Origin: Lachnospiraceae bacterium | GTDB taxonomy: Bacteria; Bacillota; Clostridia; Lachnospirales; Lachnospiraceae | Length of the DNA stretch: 52,905 nucleotides | Assembly: GCA_024681795.1 (NCBI GenBank) | Contig: JAILAD010000067.1 | Coordinates: 1 to 52,905 of the forward strand | Direction: 5' to 3' | In this document: piece after piece, positions 27,851 to 37,866 of the stretch | How the letters are laid out: every line of letters begins with the position of its first letter | How positions within the stretch are numbered: position 1 is the stretch's first letter | Program-made: the position numbers and the translations under genes | The notes under the pieces: model-generated | Told to the model about the DNA's origin: nothing | Databases searched by the model: none | What the model saw: only the letters and a program-made list of their open reading frames with translations

Positions 27851-28792
27851 TTACAACAAACGAAGCCGTATTTTGATTTTTACCGAGGCATTGCCTTCCC
27901 CGGAATATTTGGGGATATCCCCCTTTTTCAGGAGAATCCTTCGTCTTTCCTTATTCGTTTTGTATTCCGAATAATTGCGGAGCGTATCCTTTACGGATTC
28001 GTCCGGAATCACGTCGGAATAATTCTTCAGTATTTCCGCTGCCAGTGCGCTTCTCCCGTTCCGAAGAGACGGGTCGGAAATTTTGCTTTTCCAGTTTACG
28101 AAAACATTGGTACCTTTGGAACCCACCACATTGCCGCCGTGCTGCCGGTACAGAATATAAGCATTCTCATCATAAATGATTTTTCCGGTAACCGCCGCAA
28201 CCATTGCAACCCAGACATCATGAATCCGTTTTTTTAGAATTTCCGGAGCCGGTCTTCTTTGTTCTTCCGACAAAAGACGCTGTAACGACCGGTTCCATAC
28301 CATGGTACAGCCGGTTGCCTTATTGCAATTCAGAATCTGCAGATAGGAATTCTCAACAAATTCCTTATGTCTGAGTCCCGTTTCGTTGCCGTCCGCATCG
28401 ATCAGCATCTGATTGGAACAGTATAATACCGGCGAATCTTTTTCCTCTTTCCGGATTATTTCCGCCGCGGTAATCAGCTTTCCGTCAAGCCAGATATCGT
28501 CCTGGTCGCAGAATGCATAATAATCAAAATCATCCCCCGCGGAATAAACCAGTTCCATAAAGGAACAGCCGACTCCCACGTTTCCGCCCTTTATAACGGT
28601 TACGGAATCATTGTATGTTTCTTTGTATTCTTCCGCAATTTCAAGGGTTTTGTCCGAGGAACCGTCATCCCGGAGGAACAGATGCACCTTCACTCCGGTC
28701 TGTGAAAAAACGCTCTCAAGCTGTTCCTTAAGAAATCTTTCCCCGTTATATGTACTTAACAGGACTGCAACCGCAGGCTTTTGATTCTCCAT
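27851..28792 (-). CDS. GT2 family glycosyltransferase (rhamnosyltransferase-like)
   Basis: A 313-residue cytosolic glycosyltransferase with a GT-A fold. Seen: VAVLLSTYNGERFLKEQLES (residues 8-27), then LFLRDDGSSDKTLEIAEEY (nucleotide-binding Asp pair), and YYAFCDQDDIWLDGKL (about 90-105), the donor/metal site; this wording is common in rhamnosyltransferase-type GT2 proteins. The acceptor side, KATGCTMVWNRSL..RIHDVWVAMVAAVTG, also fits. Donor sugar unknown. It lies 51 nt after the LicD gene and 8 nt before the polymerase. Confidence 0.92.
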   Translation of the reverse strand: MENQKPAVAVLLSTYNGERFLKEQLESVFSQTGVKVHLFLRDDGSSDKTLEIAEEYKETYNDSVTVIKGGNVGVGCSFMELVYSAGDDFDYYAFCDQDDIWLDGKLITAAEIIRKEEKDSPVLYCSNQMLIDADGNETGLRHKEFVENSYLQILNCNKATGCTMVWNRSLQRLLSEEQRRPAPEILKKRIHDVWVAMVAAVTGKIIYDENAYILYRQHGGNVVGSKGTNVFVNWKSKISDPSLRNGRSALAAEILKNYSDVIPDESVKDTLRNYSEYKTNKERRRILLKKGDIPKYSGEGNASVKIKIRLRLL

Positions 28793-28843
28793 TTATACCC
28801 TTTTTTCCGATTCTCCCTGATTGTTGTACCGTTATAATTTGAT

Positions 28844-29656
28844 TCAAACCCGGTAGGCTTTGTATGTATGATGTGTCTGCCGCTTTTCTTCCGGCGGAAG
28901 AAGCATATAGTCTCCGTAATGCATTTTCAGGTAATCGTCGTAATCACGGATTGCCATAAAATCCCTGCCCTCAAATTCCACGGTGACAAAATTTCGGAAC
29001 ACATCCGTTTTCATGATTTCTTTTTCGCGGTAACAGCCGCATACACAGCCCGCGTATCCGGATTTTTCAAAATCAAAGCCGCGGTTTACGGCATCGATTT
29101 TTTCAAGAAGTTTCTCCGGATTTGCCATTCTGCTTAAAAGAAACATTGCAAGCCTGACCGGCTCGAGAAGGATGCTGTGCGTTTTGCTTCTCGTGAATTT
29201 CTTCCAGGAGACGGCATTTAAAACTTCCCGTTTGAAAGAGGTTTTCCGAAACCGTTTAACCGCTTCTTTTTCCGTCATTCCGAGACCGTCCAGGGGAAAT
29301 ACGTCAATATAGATTCCCGTCGGATAATCCGTCGTGTTTACCTCATCTTCAATCTTTGTCGAAGGGTCGAAAATCTTGGCAAAAAGCCCGGTATACTTCG
29401 GAGTGTCTTCATAGGAAATCAGCCTGAAAACCGTCTGATGTTCTCTTGCATACCGGATGAAATTCTCATAATCCGGGCGGGGCATCATCACGTCCACATC
29501 ATCATCCCAGGGAATAAATCCTTTATGACGGATTCCTCCGAGAAGCGTGCCGCCGCCGAGGGAATACCGGAACCCGTTCTCCCTGCAGATCCGGTCAAAC
29601 CCGATTAAAAGATTCAGTTCAATATCCTGTATTTCGTTAAGTTTCAGTTCTTCCAT
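28844..29656 (-). CDS. LicD/fukutin-like phosphotransferase
   Basis: A 270-residue member of the LicD family, nucleotidyltransferase-fold enzymes that move a phospho-alcohol (phosphocholine, ribitol phosphate or similar) from a CDP donor to a sugar. Seen: the signature YSLGGGTLLGGIRHKGFIPW then DDDVDVMMPRPDYENF (residues 31-66) with the metal-binding Asp cluster D51-D55, and YIDVFPLDGLG. The IspD/TarI-like cytidylyltransferase in the same locus could supply the donor. No choline kinase or choline importer is visible, so choline is not especially supported. The stop of the preceding GT2 gene overlaps the ribosome site. Confidence 0.92.
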   Translation of the reverse strand: MEELKLNEIQDIELNLLIGFDRICRENGFRYSLGGGTLLGGIRHKGFIPWDDDVDVMMPRPDYENFIRYAREHQTVFRLISYEDTPKYTGLFAKIFDPSTKIEDEVNTTDYPTGIYIDVFPLDGLGMTEKEAVKRFRKTSFKREVLNAVSWKKFTRSKTHSILLEPVRLAMFLLSRMANPEKLLEKIDAVNRGFDFEKSGYAGCVCGCYREKEIMKTDVFRNFVTVEFEGRDFMAIRDYDDYLKMHYGDYMLLPPEEKRQTHHTYKAYRV

Positions 29657-29662
29657 CGTGAC

Positions 29663-30649
29663 CTACTTCGAAAAGATGCCGATAATGTATCCGACGCCGT
29701 ACGAAACATGCATTACGATGTGCGTCCAAAAAAGTCCGATTTTCTCAACAAAACCATGAACCTCTTTGTTCGTGAATGAAAAAATCAGATTCGTTAACAA
29801 GTATAAAAACAAAATACCGCCGAAAACCATACCCGGAACATAGAATCCGGCAAACAGCGCAAATGCCGCGGAAGATAAGAATCCGAATAAAATAAACAGA
29901 ACAAACAAAGAAGGAATGATCTGCTTGAAGTTCGTCAGTTTTTTATGTTTTTTATTTACGGAAGGTTTGCCCTTTCCGTACCCGAAATACTGTTTTGCCA
30001 GAGCACCGTACGATTCTCTCGGATAATAAACCACCTTGATATCCGGGCTCATATAGACTTTTCCGCCTTTTTGCGCGATACGGAAATTAAATTCATCGTC
30101 CTCGTTACGCGGCATATTTTCATCATACAGTCCCATCTTTTCCGCGAAGGATTTCCGGAACGTGCCGAGGAAGACGGTATCGATAACACCCTCGTAATCT
30201 TTCCGGAAATGTTTCCCCGAGCCTACCGCAAAAACAGAGGAATACGCAGCCGCAATGCTTCTCTGCTTCCTGCTCTTTCCCTTTGTAATCTGGGGTCCGC
30301 CCACGTTGTCCATTCCGGTTTTGTTCAAAACCTCAACGGATTTGGAAATATAATCATTTGCGTATTCGGAATGAGCATCCATCCGGACAATGATTTCTCC
30401 CGCCGCCTCTTTGATTCCGATGTTCAAAGCACTCGGAATAATTCTCTTTTCGTTTTTAAGAACACGAACCCACGGATACTTCTCCTGATATCCCTTCAGA
30501 ACATCAAGTGTTCCGTCGTCCGACATTCCGTCCACAAAAAGAACTTCCATTCTGTCTTTCGGAAAATCCTGCTCCAAAATGGACTGCATGCATTTCTCTA
30601 TGTATTTCCCTTCGTTGTAAACCGGAATTACAACCGAAACTTCAATCAT
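29663..30649 (-). CDS. GT2 glycosyltransferase, ExoA-like, with C-terminal membrane segments
   Basis: A 328-residue glycosyltransferase. Seen: VSVVIPVYNEGKYIEKCMQS (residues 4-23), VLFVDGMSDDGT, GEIIVRMDAHSEY (metal-binding DxD-like site), MPRNEDDEFNFRIAQKGG (acceptor site), and two or three membrane segments from about 245 to 300. This pattern is that of ExoA-type succinoglycan glucosyltransferases, which work on lipid-linked intermediates; the sugar here is unknown. It is the first gene of locus A, about 78 nt downstream of a predicted start point. Confidence 0.92.
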   Translation of the reverse strand: MIEVSVVIPVYNEGKYIEKCMQSILEQDFPKDRMEVLFVDGMSDDGTLDVLKGYQEKYPWVRVLKNEKRIIPSALNIGIKEAAGEIIVRMDAHSEYANDYISKSVEVLNKTGMDNVGGPQITKGKSRKQRSIAAAYSSVFAVGSGKHFRKDYEGVIDTVFLGTFRKSFAEKMGLYDENMPRNEDDEFNFRIAQKGGKVYMSPDIKVVYYPRESYGALAKQYFGYGKGKPSVNKKHKKLTNFKQIIPSLFVLFILFGFLSSAAFALFAGFYVPGMVFGGILFLYLLTNLIFSFTNKEVHGFVEKIGLFWTHIVMHVSYGVGYIIGIFSK

Positions 30650-30733
30650 CAGTAAATAAAATCTCCCGTTACAGTTACTGCGTTTTATAAGTACGCAGAC
30701 ATAATCTGCCTATTATTAAACATATTCCATATT

Positions 30734-30762
30734 ATTTTACTCTTTTCAGCCCGAAATGTCTA
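30734..30762 (-). promoter_or_regulatory. Promoter of glycan locus A
   Basis: On minus: TAGACA (30757-30762), 17-bp spacer, TAAAAT (30734-30739); 10 of 12 consensus positions. Start point expected near 30727, giving a leader of about 78 nt to the first GT2 gene. Confidence 0.65.
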
Positions 30763-30882
30763 TAAAAAACACTATTTATAGGTTATTTTTACAAAAATTC
30801 ATCAAGAAATTGTGGTTAATCAAAAAAAGCGCCGAATCAAACATGACCTTTTTGTTACAGGATCTCTTTTCCGCCGGTGTAT

Positions 30883-30897
30883 GTTGTAATTTGCAAC
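30883..30897. promoter_or_regulatory. Palindromic operator site 1 upstream of the HTH-UDP-glucose dehydrogenase gene
   Basis: GTTGTAATTTGCAAC, an imperfect 15-bp palindrome. Its sequence matches the reverse complement of site 2 at 13 of 15 positions (consensus GTTGYRATTTGCAAC). It lies 15 bp upstream of the -35 hexamer, and its centre is 64 bp, about six helical turns, from that of site 2. Confidence 0.65.
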
Positions 30898-30911
30898 AAA
30901 AATATTTGATA

Positions 30912-30940
30912 TTGACCATTTTTCTTTTTTGTTCTATTAT
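30912..30940 (+). promoter_or_regulatory. Promoter of the HTH-UDP-glucose dehydrogenase gene
   Basis: TTGACC (30912-30917), 17-bp spacer, TATTAT (30935-30940); near-consensus sigma-A form. Start point expected close to 30947, which is the first base of operator site 2. The spacer is T-rich. Confidence 0.8.
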
Positions 30941-30946
30941 GATTAT

Positions 30947-30961
30947 GTTGCAAATCGCAAC
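30947..30961. promoter_or_regulatory. Palindromic operator site 2 on the transcription start
   Basis: GTTGCAAATCGCAAC, whose complement is GTTGCGATTTGCAAC. It covers the expected start point, the usual place for a repressor to block initiation, and lies 24 bp upstream of the ATG and before the AAGGAG ribosome site. Confidence 0.7.
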
Positions 30962-30985
30962 GAACGGACCGAAAGGAGAAATATT

Positions 30986-32569
30986 ATGATGGAATATGCA
31001 AAAGAAGCATTTACGGACGCTGTTTTAAAAAGCCGCAAGGCACTCGGAATTACACAGGCAGAACTTGCCGACAAGACAAAGATGAACCGTTCCACGTTAA
31101 GCAAACTGGAAAACGGTGAATATCTTCCTTCCATCGACCAGTATATGCTCTTATGCAGCGTGTTAAACCTGAATCCCGCAGATTTTTTTAAGGGTCGGGA
31201 GGACATTAAAAAAGCCGGAAAAAATACAAAGAAAACCACTGCAAAAGAAAATGAGAAATCCGGCGAGCCGGAAAAAGATGACTTTGCCGTTACCCTTCCC
31301 AAAAAAGGATATAAAATCGCGGTAGCCGGAACGGGCTATGTAGGTCTTTCGCTTGCGGTGCTTTTAGCGGGACACAATCAGGTTACGGCTGTTGATATTC
31401 TTCCGGAAAAAGTGGAAAAGATTAACCGATATGTTTCTCCCATTCAGGACGATTATATCGAAATGTATTTATCCGAGGCCAAGGAAGGAAAGCGTAAATT
31501 AAATCTGCATGCCACAACGGACGGCGCTCCGGCTTATGCGGATGCGGACTTTATCATTATTGCCGCACCCACGAATTACGATTCCGCAAAGAACTTCTTT
31601 GACTGCTCTGCGGTTGAGAATGTCATCGAAACCGTTCTCGCCGCAACAAAAAAGAAAAAGAACAAGCCCGCCATCGTCATCAAATCCACCATTCCGGTGG
31701 GATACACGGAACAGGTTCGTAAAAGATACAAAGCAGACAACATTCTCTTCAGCCCGGAATTTTTAAGGGAATCCAAAGCATTATACGACAATCTCTATCC
31801 CAGCCGTATCATTGTCGGCTGCAACGAAAACACGAAAGAAAAGGCTGCGATTTTTGCCGCTCTGTTGAAACAGGGTGCATTAAAGGAAAAGATCGACACA
31901 CTGTTTGTCGGCTATACGGAAGCGGAAGCCACAAAACTTTTTGTGAATACCTATCTCGCCCTTCGCGTTTCCTACTTCAACGAGCTTGATACCTATGCGG
32001 AAATCAAAGGCTTAAATACCGCGTCCATTATCAAGGGCGTCTGCATGGACCCGAGAGTCGGCGACTATTATAACAACCCTTCCTTCGGTTACGGCGGCTA
32101 CTGTCTCCCCAAAGATACCAAGCAGTTACTTGCAAACTATAACGACGTTCCGCAGAACATGATGTCCGCAATCGTCGAAAGCAACCGTACCAGAAAAGAT
32201 TTTATTGCGGACCGTGTCCTTGAAATAGCGGGAACTTATGAGAATTCCGAGTCCTACTCCAAAACAAAGGAATCGAAGCAGAAAGACGTGGTGGTCGGAA
32301 TTTTCCGTCTTACCATGAAAGCAAACTCCGACAACTTCCGTCAGTCCGCCATTCAGGGTGTAATGAAGCGGATCAAGGCAAAGGGTGCTACCGTCGTAAT
32401 CTACGAACCGACCCTGGAAAACGGTACCACCTTCTTCGGAAGCAAGGTTGTCAACGATTTAAAGAAATTCAAAAAGATGTGCGGCTGCATCATCGCAAAC
32501 CGCTACGACAGCGTTCTCGATGACGTGGAAGAAAAGGTATATACAAGAGATTTATTCCGCAGAGATTAA
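30986..32569 (+). CDS. XRE-type HTH domain fused to UDP-glucose 6-dehydrogenase
   Basis: A 527-residue fusion. Residues about 9-68 form an XRE/Cro-type helix-turn-helix ([20 protein letters not shown], then [20 protein letters not shown]). A Lys/Glu-rich linker (about 69-107) leads to a complete UDP-glucose dehydrogenase of about 420 residues: [20 protein letters not shown] (NAD site), [46 protein letters not shown], and the catalytic Cys in [12 protein letters not shown] (C373). The enzyme oxidises UDP-glucose to UDP-glucuronate with two NAD+. The start at 30986 has GGAG 7 nt upstream. All active-site motifs are intact, so enzyme and regulator are probably both functional; twin palindromes at its own promoter suggest autoregulation. 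Most enzymes of this family have no DNA-binding domain. Confidence 0.93.
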
Positions 32570-32599
32570 AGACAGAAATAATAACGCAGGACGGACTTT

Positions 32600-33622
32600 A
32601 TGGGGAACACGATTCAGAAAACGGCTTCAAGGCAGACGGAAATCGATATCATGCGGTGCATCTGCATCCTTTGGGTTGTTGCGTTCTCGCATCTGACAGA
32701 CTATACCCCTTACCCCGTATCCAATCCTCCCGTATTTTTTGCAACCCGGATTATGCTTGCATCCATGTTTTTCGTGTCCGGATTTTTAAACAGTAAAAAG
32801 CAGTTCTTAAACTATAAGGACTGCTTTCGTTATTATTTAACGCGTTTCTCGCATTCTTATATTCCCCTGTTCTTTGCCTGTATGGCTGCATATGCGGAGA
32901 AAATTCTGATTCACGACTGGCTGTTTCAGAACATGAAGGTTTTCATCCGGACGCTCTTCGGAGTCTCCTGTATCGTGACTCCCGCTCCGGCAACCTTATG
33001 GTTCATCTGTACGATTTTAATTTTCTATGCACTTACGCCTTTTCTCATTTGGAAATACGATTTGAAACAGATGCTTTTCAAAAGTCTCGGAGCATATGCA
33101 CTCATGCTTCTTCTGCATTTTGTTTTTCATCTTTTCGACGACAGGGTTCTTCTATACTTTCCGATTTATGTATCCGGACTGTTTTTTAACATGCTTCTGC
33201 CTGTTTTACAAAATAAAAAAATAAAAACAGCAGGCTTCATACTCTGCGCCTGCTGTGTCGTCGTCCTGACGTTAACCGGTTGGAATCACACCAAAAATTA
33301 CTTCTTTCAGTTTGCAACCGCCGCTTTCGGTATCCCTCTTGTATACCTCATTGCAAAGGGTTTCGGAAAAATCAGAGGAGTCAGTCGGTTCCTTGCTTTT
33401 TTAGGTAAAGCAGGTATGAGTTTCTACCTCTTCCACCGTCAGATTTACAGCCTTTTACAGTATTTCTTCGGAAAAACGTTTTCCCCCTGGTTTGCCTATT
33501 TGGTTGCGCTGCCGGTATGCATCCTGCTCGGAATACTGATTGATTTCCTGCTTCACCGTCTGATGAAAGCGGTTGATACTTTATTTGGTAAACTCCGCAT
33601 ACCATCCGGCAAAGTTTCTTAA
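32600..33622 (+). CDS. Acyltransferase 3 family membrane protein
   Basis: A 340-residue integral membrane protein with about 10 segments, of the family that includes OafA/NodX and transfers acyl groups, usually acetyl, to sugars. Seen: TEIDIMRCICILWVVAFSHL at the start (the R/D-x-x-R and His positions), MLASMFFVSGFL, TLWFICTILIFYALTPFLIW (with the LWF..L motif) and FLGKAGMSFYLFHRQIYSLL near the end. It follows the dehydrogenase by 30 nt and is likely co-transcribed. Its 3' end overlaps the convergent epimerase gene by 42 nt. Confidence 0.88.
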   Translation: MGNTIQKTASRQTEIDIMRCICILWVVAFSHLTDYTPYPVSNPPVFFATRIMLASMFFVSGFLNSKKQFLNYKDCFRYYLTRFSHSYIPLFFACMAAYAEKILIHDWLFQNMKVFIRTLFGVSCIVTPAPATLWFICTILIFYALTPFLIWKYDLKQMLFKSLGAYALMLLLHFVFHLFDDRVLLYFPIYVSGLFFNMLLPVLQNKKIKTAGFILCACCVVVLTLTGWNHTKNYFFQFATAAFGIPLVYLIAKGFGKIRGVSRFLAFLGKAGMSFYLFHRQIYSLLQYFFGKTFSPWFAYLVALPVCILLGILIDFLLHRLMKAVDTLFGKLRIPSGKVS

Positions 33623-34678
33623 TCCTTCGCGAATTCCGATTTGCGGTGTAAAACCATAGTCCCTTTCAAGACCGGTACTGTCCGCATATGTAATCGGAAC
33701 ATCTCCCGGCTGCATTTCCACCAGTTCCCTGTGTCCTTCAAAATCATAGTCCGCAGGTAAAATACCTGCACTTACCAGCTCTTCCTGCAGCACGGAAATA
33801 TAGTCCAGAAGATTCTCCGGCTGTCCGCCGCCGATATTGTAAACGGCATACGGGGGAACAGGAAGTCCGTCCTCTCCCGTTTCACGCACCGGTGCGCCGC
33901 CCATAACACGAACGACACCTTCCACAATATCATCCACATAAGTAAAATCACGTTTCATGTTTCCGTAATTAAACAGTTTAATCGTACCGCCTTTAACCAG
34001 TGTATTGGTTGCGGAATAATAAAACATATCCGGTCTTCCGGCAGGGCCGTAAACCGTGAAAAAGCGAAGTCCCGTACTCGGAATGTTATAAAGTTTCGAA
34101 TAGCTGTGAGCCAGCAGTTCGTTTGATTTCTTCGTCGCAGCATACAGGGATACCGGATTGTCCACCTTGTCTTCCACGCTGAACGGAACTTTTTTGTTTC
34201 CGCCGTAAACGGAAGAAGAAGATGCATAAACCAGATGCCTGACTCCTTTGTACTCTCCGTCCGCATAGGAATAGGAATTCCGGCAGGCTTCCAGAATATT
34301 GTAAAATCCGATCAGGTTGGATTCGATGTAAACATCCGGATGATCGATACTGTAACGGACTCCCGCCTGTGCCGCAAGATTCACGACAATATCAAAATGA
34401 TACTTTTCAAAAAGGCTGTCCACAAGCGCCTTGTCAGCTATGGTACCTTTTACGAAAACATGCTTCACATTCGACTTTTCCGCTGCGCTCTCCACCAGGG
34501 AAAGACGATACTCTTTCAGTTTCGGATCGTAATAATCGTTCATATTATCGAGCGAAACAATAAGTCCTCCCGTCAGATCTTTTAAAAGACGGATCACCAG
34601 ATTGGCACCGATAAATCCGGGGCATCCGGTTACCAGTATGTTTTTACCGTCAAGGTTAATTTTCTCTTTTGGCGTCAT
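33581..34678 (-). CDS. UDP-glucuronate 4-epimerase-like SDR
   Basis: A 365-residue extended SDR. Seen: ILVTGCPGFIGANLVIRLL (NAD site, residues 14-32), DNMNDYYDPKLKEYRL, NLAAQAGVRYSIDHPDVYIE (about 97-116, wording typical of UDP-glucuronate 4-epimerases), YASSSSVYGGNKKVPFS, YAATKKSNELLAHSYSKLY with catalytic Tyr/Lys, LRFFTVYGPAGRPDM, and RDFTYVDDIVEGVVRVM. It interconverts UDP-glucuronate and UDP-galacturonate, and the dehydrogenase at 30986-32569 makes its substrate. Last gene of locus B; its start overlaps the YfhO-like gene by 23 nt, and its end overlaps the convergent acyltransferase gene. Confidence 0.88.
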   Translation of the reverse strand: MTPKEKINLDGKNILVTGCPGFIGANLVIRLLKDLTGGLIVSLDNMNDYYDPKLKEYRLSLVESAAEKSNVKHVFVKGTIADKALVDSLFEKYHFDIVVNLAAQAGVRYSIDHPDVYIESNLIGFYNILEACRNSYSYADGEYKGVRHLVYASSSSVYGGNKKVPFSVEDKVDNPVSLYAATKKSNELLAHSYSKLYNIPSTGLRFFTVYGPAGRPDMFYYSATNTLVKGGTIKLFNYGNMKRDFTYVDDIVEGVVRVMGGAPVRETGEDGLPVPPYAVYNIGGGQPENLLDYISVLQEELVSAGILPADYDFEGHRELVEMQPGDVPITYADSTGLERDYGFTPQIGIREGLRNFAGWYAEFTK

Positions 34679-37349
34679 ATGATTCTCTTTCCTTTACATT
34701 TTTTACTTCTTTTTTGTCTGCCGCATAACAGGAAACGGCGAGTATTGCGGCCGCGAAAACTCCAAGGCCGCTTCCTGCGAAAAACGGAACCGGAACATAA
34801 TGCAATACAATCCTGTGTTCTCCCTTTTCAACCGGTACCGCGGAATACATGATATCCGCCTTCAGAATGTCTGCATTTTTTCCGTCCACACTGCAAAACC
34901 ATTCCCTTCGATACGGTATTGAAAAAAAGAGGTACCCGTCTTCCTTTGCGGTAATATCCGCAGATATATTATCCCACCGAATGCCGATGTTCTCAACTGT
35001 TAAATTTCGCAGTTTCGAAACATCTTCATCATACATTGACAAATCACGTCCGTAAACGTGAATGTCCGATACAACCATCCCTGTTTCACTCGGGATTTCA
35101 ATATTGATGATTCTGTCCTGTCCGGACAGTTCCCCGTAGTATCCGAGATTAAAACAGAATGTATTCTGTCGGTTTTTCCGGATATATTCTTCACCTCCGA
35201 CACTGACATCATCATACCCGTCTTCATTATAAACCCGGATCAGGTGTATTTTTTCATCAGAGATTACTGCAGTAAGTTCCACATACAGTTCCCCGTTTAT
35301 CATGGAATCTTCCGCTTCAAGAAGAATTGAGGCGTCTTTTTTCTTAATCAGGTAAGCGTCGGCATTTTTCTCCGCATTCGTGACCTTTTTTACATTGTAT
35401 GATAGTTCCCTGCTGCAAAGCTCCCCTTTTTGAGCCGGAAAATTCTTCCCCTTTTCATCCGGGAGTTCTCCTTTCTTAACGCCGGTTTCATCCTCCGTAA
35501 CAATCTTCTTAAGGAGAATTTCTTCTTTTTCGGCGATATTCAGCATTTCAAAATCTGCCCTCGGAACAGTATCCGTAAAGAACAAAAACATGGATGCGCC
35601 GTACGGATTTTCATAAATATCTGCAGCATCGGTTTCTCTTTTTAATTCAAATCCATACGGAATTTCTTTTCTGTTTTCCCGATTCCACAAATAATATTTT
35701 ACACAGGCCAGAGTATCTTCGGATATTTTACCACCCAGAGAACGGGATTTATTTATCTGGATCAGGGATGTGCTTTCCATCACTTTACAGTATTCCAGAG
35801 AATTCGGATTTAAAAGCGGTACAAATGCCCCGGACCCGTTGTATCCGTACCAGTAGTCCAGATTGCATAATTGTTCTTCCATGTAATGCGATTCATCCAT
35901 CCTGTAAAATGAGGAATCTTCCGCAATGACTGAAGCCGAAGCCGATGCCGGATATGTTTCAAGCGTATCGTTTACGGCTCCGTATGCAAGGCATTTGTTT
36001 TTTACGTCATATCCGGCCGTAAACGCATAAAAACCCGTTGCGCAGGCGGAAGCAGAAAGAATTGTGTACACACAGACCTGCCTTATCTTTTCTTTTTTCA
36101 CGAAAAGCAAAACATCGTAAAGCACGGTTGATACAAGCATTACGGACGCAAAAACAATGATTACGGCAGGGCCTTCTTTTCGTAAACAGAAAACCGAAAA
36201 CGCACAAAACAAAACCAGTATGATATGCATCACCAGAATCTGCTTTTTCGTGATTTCTTCCTTCATCTCCCGCAAAACATTCGCAAATAATACCGCGGAA
36301 ATGATTCCGAACACAAAGCTGCCCCGTTCCGAAGCCACGGTATTTCCGAAAATCTGCGAAAAAATGCTCATATTCATGAGTAAAATCATCAATAAAAGCA
36401 CATACAGATAAAATTTCTTTTTACTTTTCGAAACCGCCAGATAAAGTATGGGAAACAAAAGAAGTGTCGATACTCCGAGAAGGTCTTCGTCAACCAAAAA
36501 CATATGACTGATTTTACCCGATAATTCGCAGAAAAATTGCAAAACGGAAACAGAGATTTCCGTTCCTTCCGTTCCGAATCTCGGAGTCCCGATAAGTTCC
36601 AGAACGACCGGCAGACCGAGAGGCATTCCGAGACCGATTCCAAGCAGATAATATTTAACCGTCCTCCCGAAATAACCAAAAAACCGTTTTACGTCCGGTT
36701 TGTATTCAAGCATCAGCATCAGGAAATACATTACCATTCCGAGAGAAATAAAATAAGTTTCCCAGACACTGAGCGAAAAAAACAAACCAAGGGACAGGGA
36801 GAACAAAAGTCCTTTCTTTTCCTTCATCAGTTTTTCCAAGCCAAGCAGAATAACCGGAAGAAAAATATACATCGGGGAAAAAACCGGCTGCTTTACTTCA
36901 TTTACCAGAATAAAGCCGTAGAGGACATAAATCATACTCGCCGGAAGGATATATTCTTTAGGAACGGATTTGTAACGAAACAGAAGGGATGCACAAATCC
37001 CTGCCAGATAAGTTCTGAATACGGTCAGAAAAATATAAACCGGTTCCGCGAAACGCTTCGGAACAAAAAGCCAGACAAGATCGAACAAATCCATGCCGTT
37101 TAAGGCACTCAGTGTAAAATCCCCGAACAGATTAAAATTTGTCCAGGCACTTTTCCCTTTTAACAATGTCATCAGAACGGAGCGTTTAAACGGTTCTGCC
37201 TCATAATACGCGGAAATACAGTCATCGAAATTCAGTATTGTCTTTCCGTTAATAAATAAAACAATATGGGACAGTCCCCAGACTGCCAGGAAACAGAGCG
37301 TATATTTCAGAATATACCGGATTTCAGATTTCTTAATTCTCACTGTCAT
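34656..37349 (-). CDS. YfhO-like large membrane protein (GT-C type)
   Basis: An 897-residue protein with about 14 membrane segments, a large outside region (about 480-860) and a final membrane segment. The first loop carries NGKTILNFDDCISAYYEAEP with an Asp pair, and the end reads DGYLFFSIPYRREWFCSVDG..VPVEKGEHRIVLHYVPVPF. Both are hallmarks of the YfhO family, which is linked to glycosylation of wall polymers such as lipoteichoic acid from lipid-linked sugars. Which sugar and acceptor are used here is unknown. It overlaps the acetyltransferase gene by 17 nt at its start. Confidence 0.87.
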   Translation of the reverse strand: MTVRIKKSEIRYILKYTLCFLAVWGLSHIVLFINGKTILNFDDCISAYYEAEPFKRSVLMTLLKGKSAWTNFNLFGDFTLSALNGMDLFDLVWLFVPKRFAEPVYIFLTVFRTYLAGICASLLFRYKSVPKEYILPASMIYVLYGFILVNEVKQPVFSPMYIFLPVILLGLEKLMKEKKGLLFSLSLGLFFSLSVWETYFISLGMVMYFLMLMLEYKPDVKRFFGYFGRTVKYYLLGIGLGMPLGLPVVLELIGTPRFGTEGTEISVSVLQFFCELSGKISHMFLVDEDLLGVSTLLLFPILYLAVSKSKKKFYLYVLLLMILLMNMSIFSQIFGNTVASERGSFVFGIISAVLFANVLREMKEEITKKQILVMHIILVLFCAFSVFCLRKEGPAVIIVFASVMLVSTVLYDVLLFVKKEKIRQVCVYTILSASACATGFYAFTAGYDVKNKCLAYGAVNDTLETYPASASASVIAEDSSFYRMDESHYMEEQLCNLDYWYGYNGSGAFVPLLNPNSLEYCKVMESTSLIQINKSRSLGGKISEDTLACVKYYLWNRENRKEIPYGFELKRETDAADIYENPYGASMFLFFTDTVPRADFEMLNIAEKEEILLKKIVTEDETGVKKGELPDEKGKNFPAQKGELCSRELSYNVKKVTNAEKNADAYLIKKKDASILLEAEDSMINGELYVELTAVISDEKIHLIRVYNEDGYDDVSVGGEEYIRKNRQNTFCFNLGYYGELSGQDRIINIEIPSETGMVVSDIHVYGRDLSMYDEDVSKLRNLTVENIGIRWDNISADITAKEDGYLFFSIPYRREWFCSVDGKNADILKADIMYSAVPVEKGEHRIVLHYVPVPFFAGSGLGVFAAAILAVSCYAADKKEVKNVKERESYDAKREN

Positions 37350-37866
37350 CGTATTTCTTTTTTAAGTACTCTCTGACTTCCTCCCTTCCCATACTCTTCG
37401 TAAAGGAAAATTCATTTTTATGTTTTTCTTCATACTCTTCTATGGTTTCAATCACTCTTGCCGGAATGCCGACCGCAACGGAATTGTCGGGAATATCCTT
37501 TGTTACGATTGCACCGCTTCCGATGATGACGTTGTTTCCGATATGTACTCCCGGCATTATCATGGCATTGGTTCCCACATGAACGTTATTGCCGATTACT
37601 ACTTTTCCGAAAAGCGTCAGTTCCTCTTTATTCGGAAGGGAGGAACATTCCCGTAAAACCCACGCACCGCCGTCATGCGTTACAATCGTAACGCCCTGGT
37701 TTAACCGCACGTGATCACCGATTGTAATTAAATACGGCTCGCTGCCGAGATTAATTCCTCCGCGGAACTCGCATCTCTCCCCGATGGTTGCGCCGAGATC
37801 CCTGTAAAATTTCACGGGATTTTTGCTCTTTTTGTATCGTTTACGAAGTTCGGAAATAATACCCAT
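37333..37866 (-). CDS. Hexapeptide-repeat (left-handed beta-helix) O-acetyltransferase
   Basis: A 177-residue member of the CysE/LacA/NodL/WbbJ group. Seen: repeated hexapeptide turns (ATIGERCEFRGGINLGSEPY, ITIGDHVRLNQGVTIVTHDG, VVIGNNVHVGTNAMIMPGVH, IGNNVIIGSGAIVTKDIPDN) and the probable catalytic His in THDGG. VAVGIPARVIETIEEY is the usual C-terminal cap. It probably acetylates a sugar in the locus B repeat unit with acetyl-CoA. The ATG shares its A with the TAA of the flippase gene (TAATG). Confidence 0.93.
   Translation of the reverse strand: MGIISELRKRYKKSKNPVKFYRDLGATIGERCEFRGGINLGSEPYLITIGDHVRLNQGVTIVTHDGGAWVLRECSSLPNKEELTLFGKVVIGNNVHVGTNAMIMPGVHIGNNVIIGSGAIVTKDIPDNSVAVGIPARVIETIEEYEEKHKNEFSFTKSMGREEVREYLKKKYDDSEN

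Follow-up and report, generated by a model that had tools for sequence, protein, structure and literature searches.

Several enzymes, among them PutA, NadR and BirA, also act as regulators, with the enzyme and a DNA-binding regulator joined in one chain that controls the pathway served by the enzyme. To our knowledge, few enzymes are known that combine a working DNA-binding domain with retained catalysis. UDP-glucose dehydrogenase, as represented by the Streptococcus pyogenes and Klebsiella enzymes, is a dimer. The stand-alone short-type enzymes of known structure (K. pneumoniae 3phl and 3plr, and 1dli, which we take to be the S. pyogenes enzyme) carry no DNA-binding domain. The nearest studied protein that joins an XRE domain to an enzyme fold is BzdR of Azoarcus, which consists of an XRE domain and a shikimate-kinase-like domain (PMC3602430). 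In that report, loss of enzyme activity is presented as essential to the origin of BzdR, and a bifunctional chimera, Q1, showed no in vivo response to the inducer, unlike the catalytically inactive chimera Q2 (PMC3602430).

The locus described here encodes a UDP-glucose dehydrogenase (Ugd) with its own XRE-type helix-turn-helix (HTH) domain. It resembles BzdR in having an XRE head, a linker and an enzyme-derived body; in BzdR, this body is reported to bind a small molecule and the protein to control transcription (PMC3602430). The fused Ugd differs from BzdR as described there in being built on another enzyme, in its intact active site, in its occurrence in many natural genomes and in the predicted sites at its own gene. 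It differs from PutA, NadR and BirA in both the enzyme and the DNA-binding domain, none of the three being a nucleotide-sugar dehydrogenase.

Architecture and distribution of the fusion

The window, a 52,905-nucleotide stretch of DNA (contig JAILAD010000067.1) from a Lachnospiraceae bacterium, contains the fused gene with the following parts.

30986–32569, plus strand: ugd–HTH fusion gene, encoding an HTH (residues ~11–68), a linker (~70–106) and UDP-glucose 6-dehydrogenase (109–527)
31016–31189, plus strand: XRE HTH domain, residues 11–68, supported by Pfam, AlphaFold2 and conservation over 90 fused proteins
31310–32566, plus strand: UDP-glucose dehydrogenase part, residues 109–527, supported by Pfam, structure matches and the invariant C373, K376 and D377

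The open reading frame specifies 527 residues, in which an XRE (HTH_3) domain is connected to the dehydrogenase by a linker predicted to be disordered. A domain search confirmed the sequence-only reading of an XRE HTH and a complete UDP-glucose dehydrogenase in one chain: Pfam HTH_3 matches residues 17–67 (E 7e-13), and the N-terminal (UDPG_MGDP_dh_N, 110–286), central (312–401) and C-terminal (439–515) enzyme domains are all present, each of the four above its cut-off. AlphaFold2 predicts an N-terminal helical bundle with block means of pLDDT of 83–97 over residues 1–70, so that both the HTH_3 domain and the fold of XRE (Cro/C1-type) DNA-binding proteins are found. The linker residues 73–100 and parts of the central region of the enzyme have pLDDT values below 50, and the whole model has a mean pLDDT of 76 and a pTM of 0.55. 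The best-scoring NCBIfam model is PRK15057 (Ugd), at 508 bits against an equivalog cut-off of 757, whereas the protein clears the cut-off of the subfamily model TIGR03026 (299 against 190). The nearest solved structures are the Klebsiella and Streptococcus UDP-glucose dehydrogenases (3phl/3plr and 1dli), which have the three domains and the catalytic motif in common with it and, in the best matches, are 53–55% identical. The catalytic Cys373 and the neighboring Lys376/Asp377 motif are invariant in the 90 fused proteins that exceed 400 residues, out of 93 fused loci. Over the same 90 proteins, the mean share of the majority residue is 0.66 in the HTH, compared with 0.09 in the linker. By these residues and domains, the fused protein is a UDP-glucose dehydrogenase that retains its active site and is predicted to be active. 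It is the sole ugd match in the genome (2.75 Mb, 93% complete, 88 contigs). The sequence AAAGGAG lies approximately 8 nt 5′ of the first of two adjoining ATG codons. None of ATG, GTG and TTG occurs in codons 69–112, the stretch between the HTH and the enzyme, and therefore no usual start codon separates the two.

A count of the architecture across Lachnospiraceae, proposed in the sequence-only reading, identified the fusion in at least 38 of 397 sampled genomes, including that of the window. This sample yielded at least ~150 Ugd matches, from which 110 ugd loci were fetched (38 fused and 72 stand-alone); the remaining 40 have open frames of length 452 or less and are hence not fused, save G001 and G194:C10, which are cut by contig edges. 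In the genus of the window, 3 of 31 genomes carry the fusion, and 14 of the 31 have a Ugd match at E ≤ 1e-100. In the order sample, 14 of 392 genomes encode a close HTH within an open frame no shorter than 497 codons, and all 14 were confirmed as fused. Ugd matches at E ≤ 1e-150 occur in 40 of 398 genomes drawn evenly from the phylum, and the only fused one is the window's genome; a further candidate, G465, was rejected because its long frame reflects an upstream overlap. When named genomes were scanned with the HTH, the best 80 of 98 relatives comprised 72 Ugd fusions, seven separate HTH proteins and one relative masked within the frame. Carriers include Claveliimonas bilis, Blautia parvula, Ruminococcus albus 8, Acetitomaculum ruminis, [Eubacterium] cellulosolvens, four Anaerococcus species, Enterococcus nangangensis and a Christensenella MAG. 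The fused protein of E. nangangensis (L160), which lies outside the clostridial groups, has 446 residues, about 45 fewer than most others, and its gene is preceded by two operator sites of the type described below. In one of the 38 loci (L146/L055; G278, [Clostridium] polysaccharolyticum DSM 1801), a stop after 171 codons interrupts the fused frame and the enzyme sequence continues 3′ of it, owing to either a sequence error or decay.

In a tree of 116 enzymes, the distribution of the fusion requires 11 changes, compared with 38.5 when the labels are shuffled, and the window's enzyme falls within a clade of 15 rows, all fused (SH-aLRT 99). This pattern would fit either a single old origin followed by losses or several gains. 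Since the architecture recurs with a similar HTH in many genomes, it is neither an assembly artefact nor a one-off. In line with the earlier statement that no described example was known, a literature search covering no preprints and few subscription papers listed no paper on such a fusion, but in genomes the fusion recurs many times.

Predicted operators at the fused promoter

In the relatives, no near-perfect copy of the window-type operator was found outside the window, and an unbiased motif search was therefore run upstream of the 38 fused genes. This search returned a 17-bp palindrome, TGTTatTtaaAatAACA, with a palindromic log-likelihood ratio of 204.7, compared with 32.4 for shuffled sequences; 38 stand-alone upstream regions gave 71.4, from a different, GC-rich pattern. 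At a threshold of 9 bits, sites were present at 34 of the 38 fused training loci and at 4 of the 72 stand-alone ugd loci, and a single stand-alone locus (1/72) reached 12 bits. The held-out set was assembled from 72 fused loci by removing two with short upstream sequence (L156 and L206) and 15 near-identical to training loci. In the resulting 55 loci, sites were detected in 52 at ≥9 bits and in 50 at ≥12 bits, whereas the reversed sequences gave 4 and 0, and shuffled upstreams at ≥9 bits averaged 1.95 with a maximum of 5. Two or more sites occur in 38 of the 55. Over all 93 fused loci at ≥9 bits, at least two sites are present in 63, a single site in 23 and no site in 7, the last comprising three held-out and four training loci, of which the window is one. 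In the 37 other fused genomes, the strict consensus occurs 10 times in 8 genomes: by their coordinates, nine sites directly precede the fused ugd, and the tenth lies inside pnp. A backwards-pattern control yielded 3 sites. A test of independent fusion–operator pairs had just one pair on supported branches of the tree. The motif is best described as a predicted operator at the fused gene's own promoter, with dyads tied to the fusion and nearly exclusive to the fused promoter.

The corresponding region of the window contains two dyads flanking a candidate promoter.

30882–30898, no strand assigned: upstream operator dyad TGTTGTAATTTGCAACA, in a layout common to two congeners and with a family-matrix score of 7.8 bits
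30912–30940, plus strand: sigma-70-like promoter, TTGACC-17-TATTAT, between the dyads, in a layout common to the congeners
30946–30962, no strand assigned: downstream operator dyad TGTTGCAAATCGCAACG, with a family-matrix score below 7 bits, positioned over the expected start of transcription

These dyads represent a divergent variant in which the outer arms of the family motif, TGTT and AAC, are retained and the inner bases differ. As both score below 9 bits, the case for them rests on their dyad form, their position and the congeners. The order dyad, −35, −10, dyad is common to the window and two fused congeners, with the dyads 64, 64 and 63 bp apart, the weaker upstream dyads of the congeners having been picked by eye. 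Promoter matches in this region are at chance level (3 found, 3.5 expected). Both dyads are contained in the 30870–30970 region that had been proposed for a footprint.

The positions of the sites relative to predicted promoters follow the DNA helix. In this analysis and in those of site-to-site phasing and operator–HTH distance, the two dyads of the window were entered by hand, as were those of L008 in the last. Site centers keep one helical phase to the predicted promoter with a period of ~10.7 bp in the 59 of 93 loci that have both a predicted promoter and a site, the other 34 lacking one or both. The phasing strength R was 0.57 (111 sites), above every one of 5000 permutations in which promoters were shuffled among loci (maximum 0.365). 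Kinship of the loci may inflate this value, but the phasing was no weaker after the loci were thinned at 80% identity (R 0.588, 86 sites, 48 loci; maximum of 5000 permutations 0.395). Positions counted from the ATG gave R of at most 0.19. The steps of the site centers include −114, −102, −91, −69, −59, −49, −39, −27 and −17, with a cluster at +35 to +38, the commonest position. Overlap with the core promoter is seen in 21 of 58 cases, below the permuted mean of 28.6, and such overlap was rejected as a general rule. Since most sites spare the core promoter, a simple block of polymerase binding is ill-suited to most relatives, and the dyad over the start in the window is not the rule. The mode of repression, if repression occurs at all, may thus differ among relatives.

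Sites occur both upstream and downstream in 34 loci. In these, the phase of the upstream sites is tighter with respect to the promoter (R 0.75) than from one site to the other (R 0.45, p 0.04; after thinning, R 0.44, p 0.10). As the spacing phase is weaker than the promoter phase, DNA looping between the two sites is not claimed, and room is left for activation. In such a scheme, the phase-locked upstream dyads would activate transcription by contacting RNA polymerase, either alone or, as dual control, alongside repression by the downstream dyad. The tighter promoter phase and the spared core promoters are consistent with it. However, the commonest site position, near +35 to +38, suits repression, and the upstream centers span ~−8 to −149, which is wide for an activator. 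Activation is accordingly regarded as an unlikely, though not negligible, account.

The operators also vary with the HTH domains. In a set of 84 loci, the distance between operators is more strongly correlated with that between HTHs (r 0.41 for residues 24–45 and 0.39 for the rest of the HTH) than with enzyme distance (r 0.26). Given enzyme distance, the partial correlations are 0.35 and 0.33, respectively (permutation p 0.001 each). Within these 84 loci, the turn-recognition part of the HTH covaries with the operator no more strongly than the rest of the domain. Among the fetched loci, the separate HTH proteins nearest to the Ugd HTH are XRE proteins of 115–119 residues. A neighboring M78 (ImmA/IrrE-type) peptidase was confirmed in L205 and L211, and M78-like frames follow the XRE protein in L204, L207, L209, L241 and L242. 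These XRE–M78 modules (for example L205, L211 and L241) resemble the fusion in their HTH and differ from it in that the HTH is a separate protein with a peptidase partner and no sugar enzyme. A third frame containing FLDANxxIPPDR occurs in L204, L207, L208, L209, L211, L212 and L242 and is absent from L205 and L241; the third protein of L211 has no match in Pfam or NCBIfam. Eight scored modules (L204, L205, L207–L209, L211, L212 and L241) have upstream dyads like the Ugd operator, L241 carrying TGTTATTTTAAGCAACA at 21.3 bits and the other separate-HTH loci scoring 10.0–16.2 bits. We infer that an HTH and its operator were captured by the enzyme as a repressor head.

The same relatives bear on whether another regulator binds the dyads, leaving the enzyme's HTH with another role or none. 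Dyad binding is a prediction from sequence, and close HTH relatives do exist elsewhere as separate proteins with similar upstream dyads. Against this, stand-alone ugd genes seldom have dyads at ≥12 bits, strict sites are nearly confined to the fused promoter, and operator and HTH diverge together. Binding by a different regulator is therefore considered improbable.

Neighboring genes and the predicted reach of control

The fused gene lies amid a glycan gene cluster on the minus strand (27851–37866), which encodes LicD, two family-2 glycosyltransferases, an SDR epimerase, a YfhO-like protein and a hexapeptide transferase. Two genes downstream are relevant here.

32600–33622, plus strand: acyltransferase-3 membrane protein, 30 bp 3′ of the fused gene and on the same strand
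33581–34678, minus strand: SDR-family sugar-nucleotide epimerase, whose homologs lie directly behind the fused ugd in some relatives

The acyltransferase gene is probably co-transcribed with ugd. The epimerase is presumably a UDP-glucuronate 4-epimerase; its best solved relative is labeled dTDP-glucose 4,6-dehydratase, and no NCBIfam equivalog reached its cut-off for this protein. A homolog with at least 60% identity follows the fused ugd on the same strand in 18 of the 58 loci with enough downstream sequence (17 within ~112 bp and one at ~536 bp), and on the other strand in 3 of the 58. By visual inspection, a galactokinase-like protein is encoded directly downstream in L145, L168, L171 and L202. 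That of L171 matches galactokinase models below their cut-offs, and the substrate could be a uronic acid instead of galactose. In L164, L173 and L181, the fused gene is immediately followed by one for a second Ugd-type dehydrogenase that lacks an HTH, and the L181 protein passes the nucleotide-sugar dehydrogenase model TIGR03026. In G081 and G073, a stand-alone ugd adjoins the fused one. The downstream genes at fused loci fit a control of UDP-uronate supply.

The position within a glycan cluster invites the idea of a wider regulator, acting on other loci or on the flanking glycan genes, the latter having been raised as a possibility in the sequence-only reading. Yet a search of the window and its genome with the window-type pattern at up to one mismatch found no intergenic copy besides the two ugd sites; the three other genomic matches all lie inside long open frames, by eye those of a FabD-like and two GGDEF-type proteins. 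The strict sites of the 37 other genomes, nine of ten at ugd and the tenth inside pnp, likewise offer no intergenic site elsewhere. At these stringencies, which weaker sites would escape, a wider regulon was rejected, the suggested control of flanking loci found no support, and a broader regulator appears very unlikely. Control would instead extend to the genes co-transcribed with ugd: probably that of the acyltransferase in the window, and one for an epimerase-like protein in 18 of 58 relatives.

Probable autoregulation and possible metabolite sensing

The proposal that the fused protein regulates its own gene withstood the analysis. Autoregulation is strongly supported by comparative sequence data: the upstream dyads are conserved, rare at stand-alone ugd and helically phased with predicted promoters, and the dyad pair of the window shares its layout with two congeners. 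We consider it highly probable that the protein is an autoregulatory enzyme whose XRE heads bind dyads around its own promoter and thereby lower the transcription of ugd and co-transcribed genes, although repression as the direction of the effect is what we infer. The enzyme dimer would bring two XRE heads together, and the paired heads would bind the 17-bp dyads. Bound protein would then reduce transcription, from a downstream dyad placed over the expected start in the window and centered at ~+35 to +38, inside the transcript, in many relatives. Occupancy of the active site by UDP-glucose, UDP-glucuronate or NAD+/NADH may change DNA binding, and such ligand dependence could match UDP-uronate supply to demand.

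Sensing of UDP-glucose, UDP-glucuronate or NAD(H), the remaining part of the earlier proposal, is plausible. A narrower version of the autoregulatory account, whose probability overlaps with that of the broader one, holds that repression depends simply on the amount of protein, with the enzyme supplying only the dimer and no metabolite being sensed. It draws on the same operator evidence and additionally on the linker, which is poorly conserved and predicted to be disordered and therefore offers no obvious path for allostery. On the other side, many genera keep the HTH attached to an enzyme whose active site is intact, not as a separate regulator, and some of the regulated operons contain an epimerase-like next step; neither point is decisive. 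Such amount-dependent control has close to, but somewhat below, an even chance of being correct. The alternative extension of the autoregulatory account is held tentatively, as slightly the less favored possibility: the active dehydrogenase would serve as a metabolite gate, and its progress through catalysis, with UDP-glucose or UDP-glucuronate bound and with NAD+ or NADH, would set the binding at its phase-locked operators, the HTH and operator having been captured from an XRE/ImmA-type module. BzdR exemplifies an enzyme body without catalysis, whereas the active-site residues of the fused Ugd are intact. Given that catalysis was lost in BzdR and that the active chimera was unresponsive in vivo (PMC3602430), the retained active site suggests that, if sensing occurs, the product or cofactor would be favored over the substrate.

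Enzyme-regulators as such are already known; new here is a predicted operator for a recurring HTH–Ugd fusion. The fused Ugd is a candidate enzyme-regulator spread across many genera, in which the step from enzyme to regulator could be studied in nature and not in engineered chimeras. If the proposed autoregulation is correct, the fusion would place transcriptional control directly at the step by which anaerobic Bacillota enter the route to UDP-uronic acids, and it may possibly serve as a natural biosensor for UDP-glucose or UDP-glucuronate. If the metabolite gate also proves true, a single protein would constitute a feedback loop on the supply of UDP-uronates.
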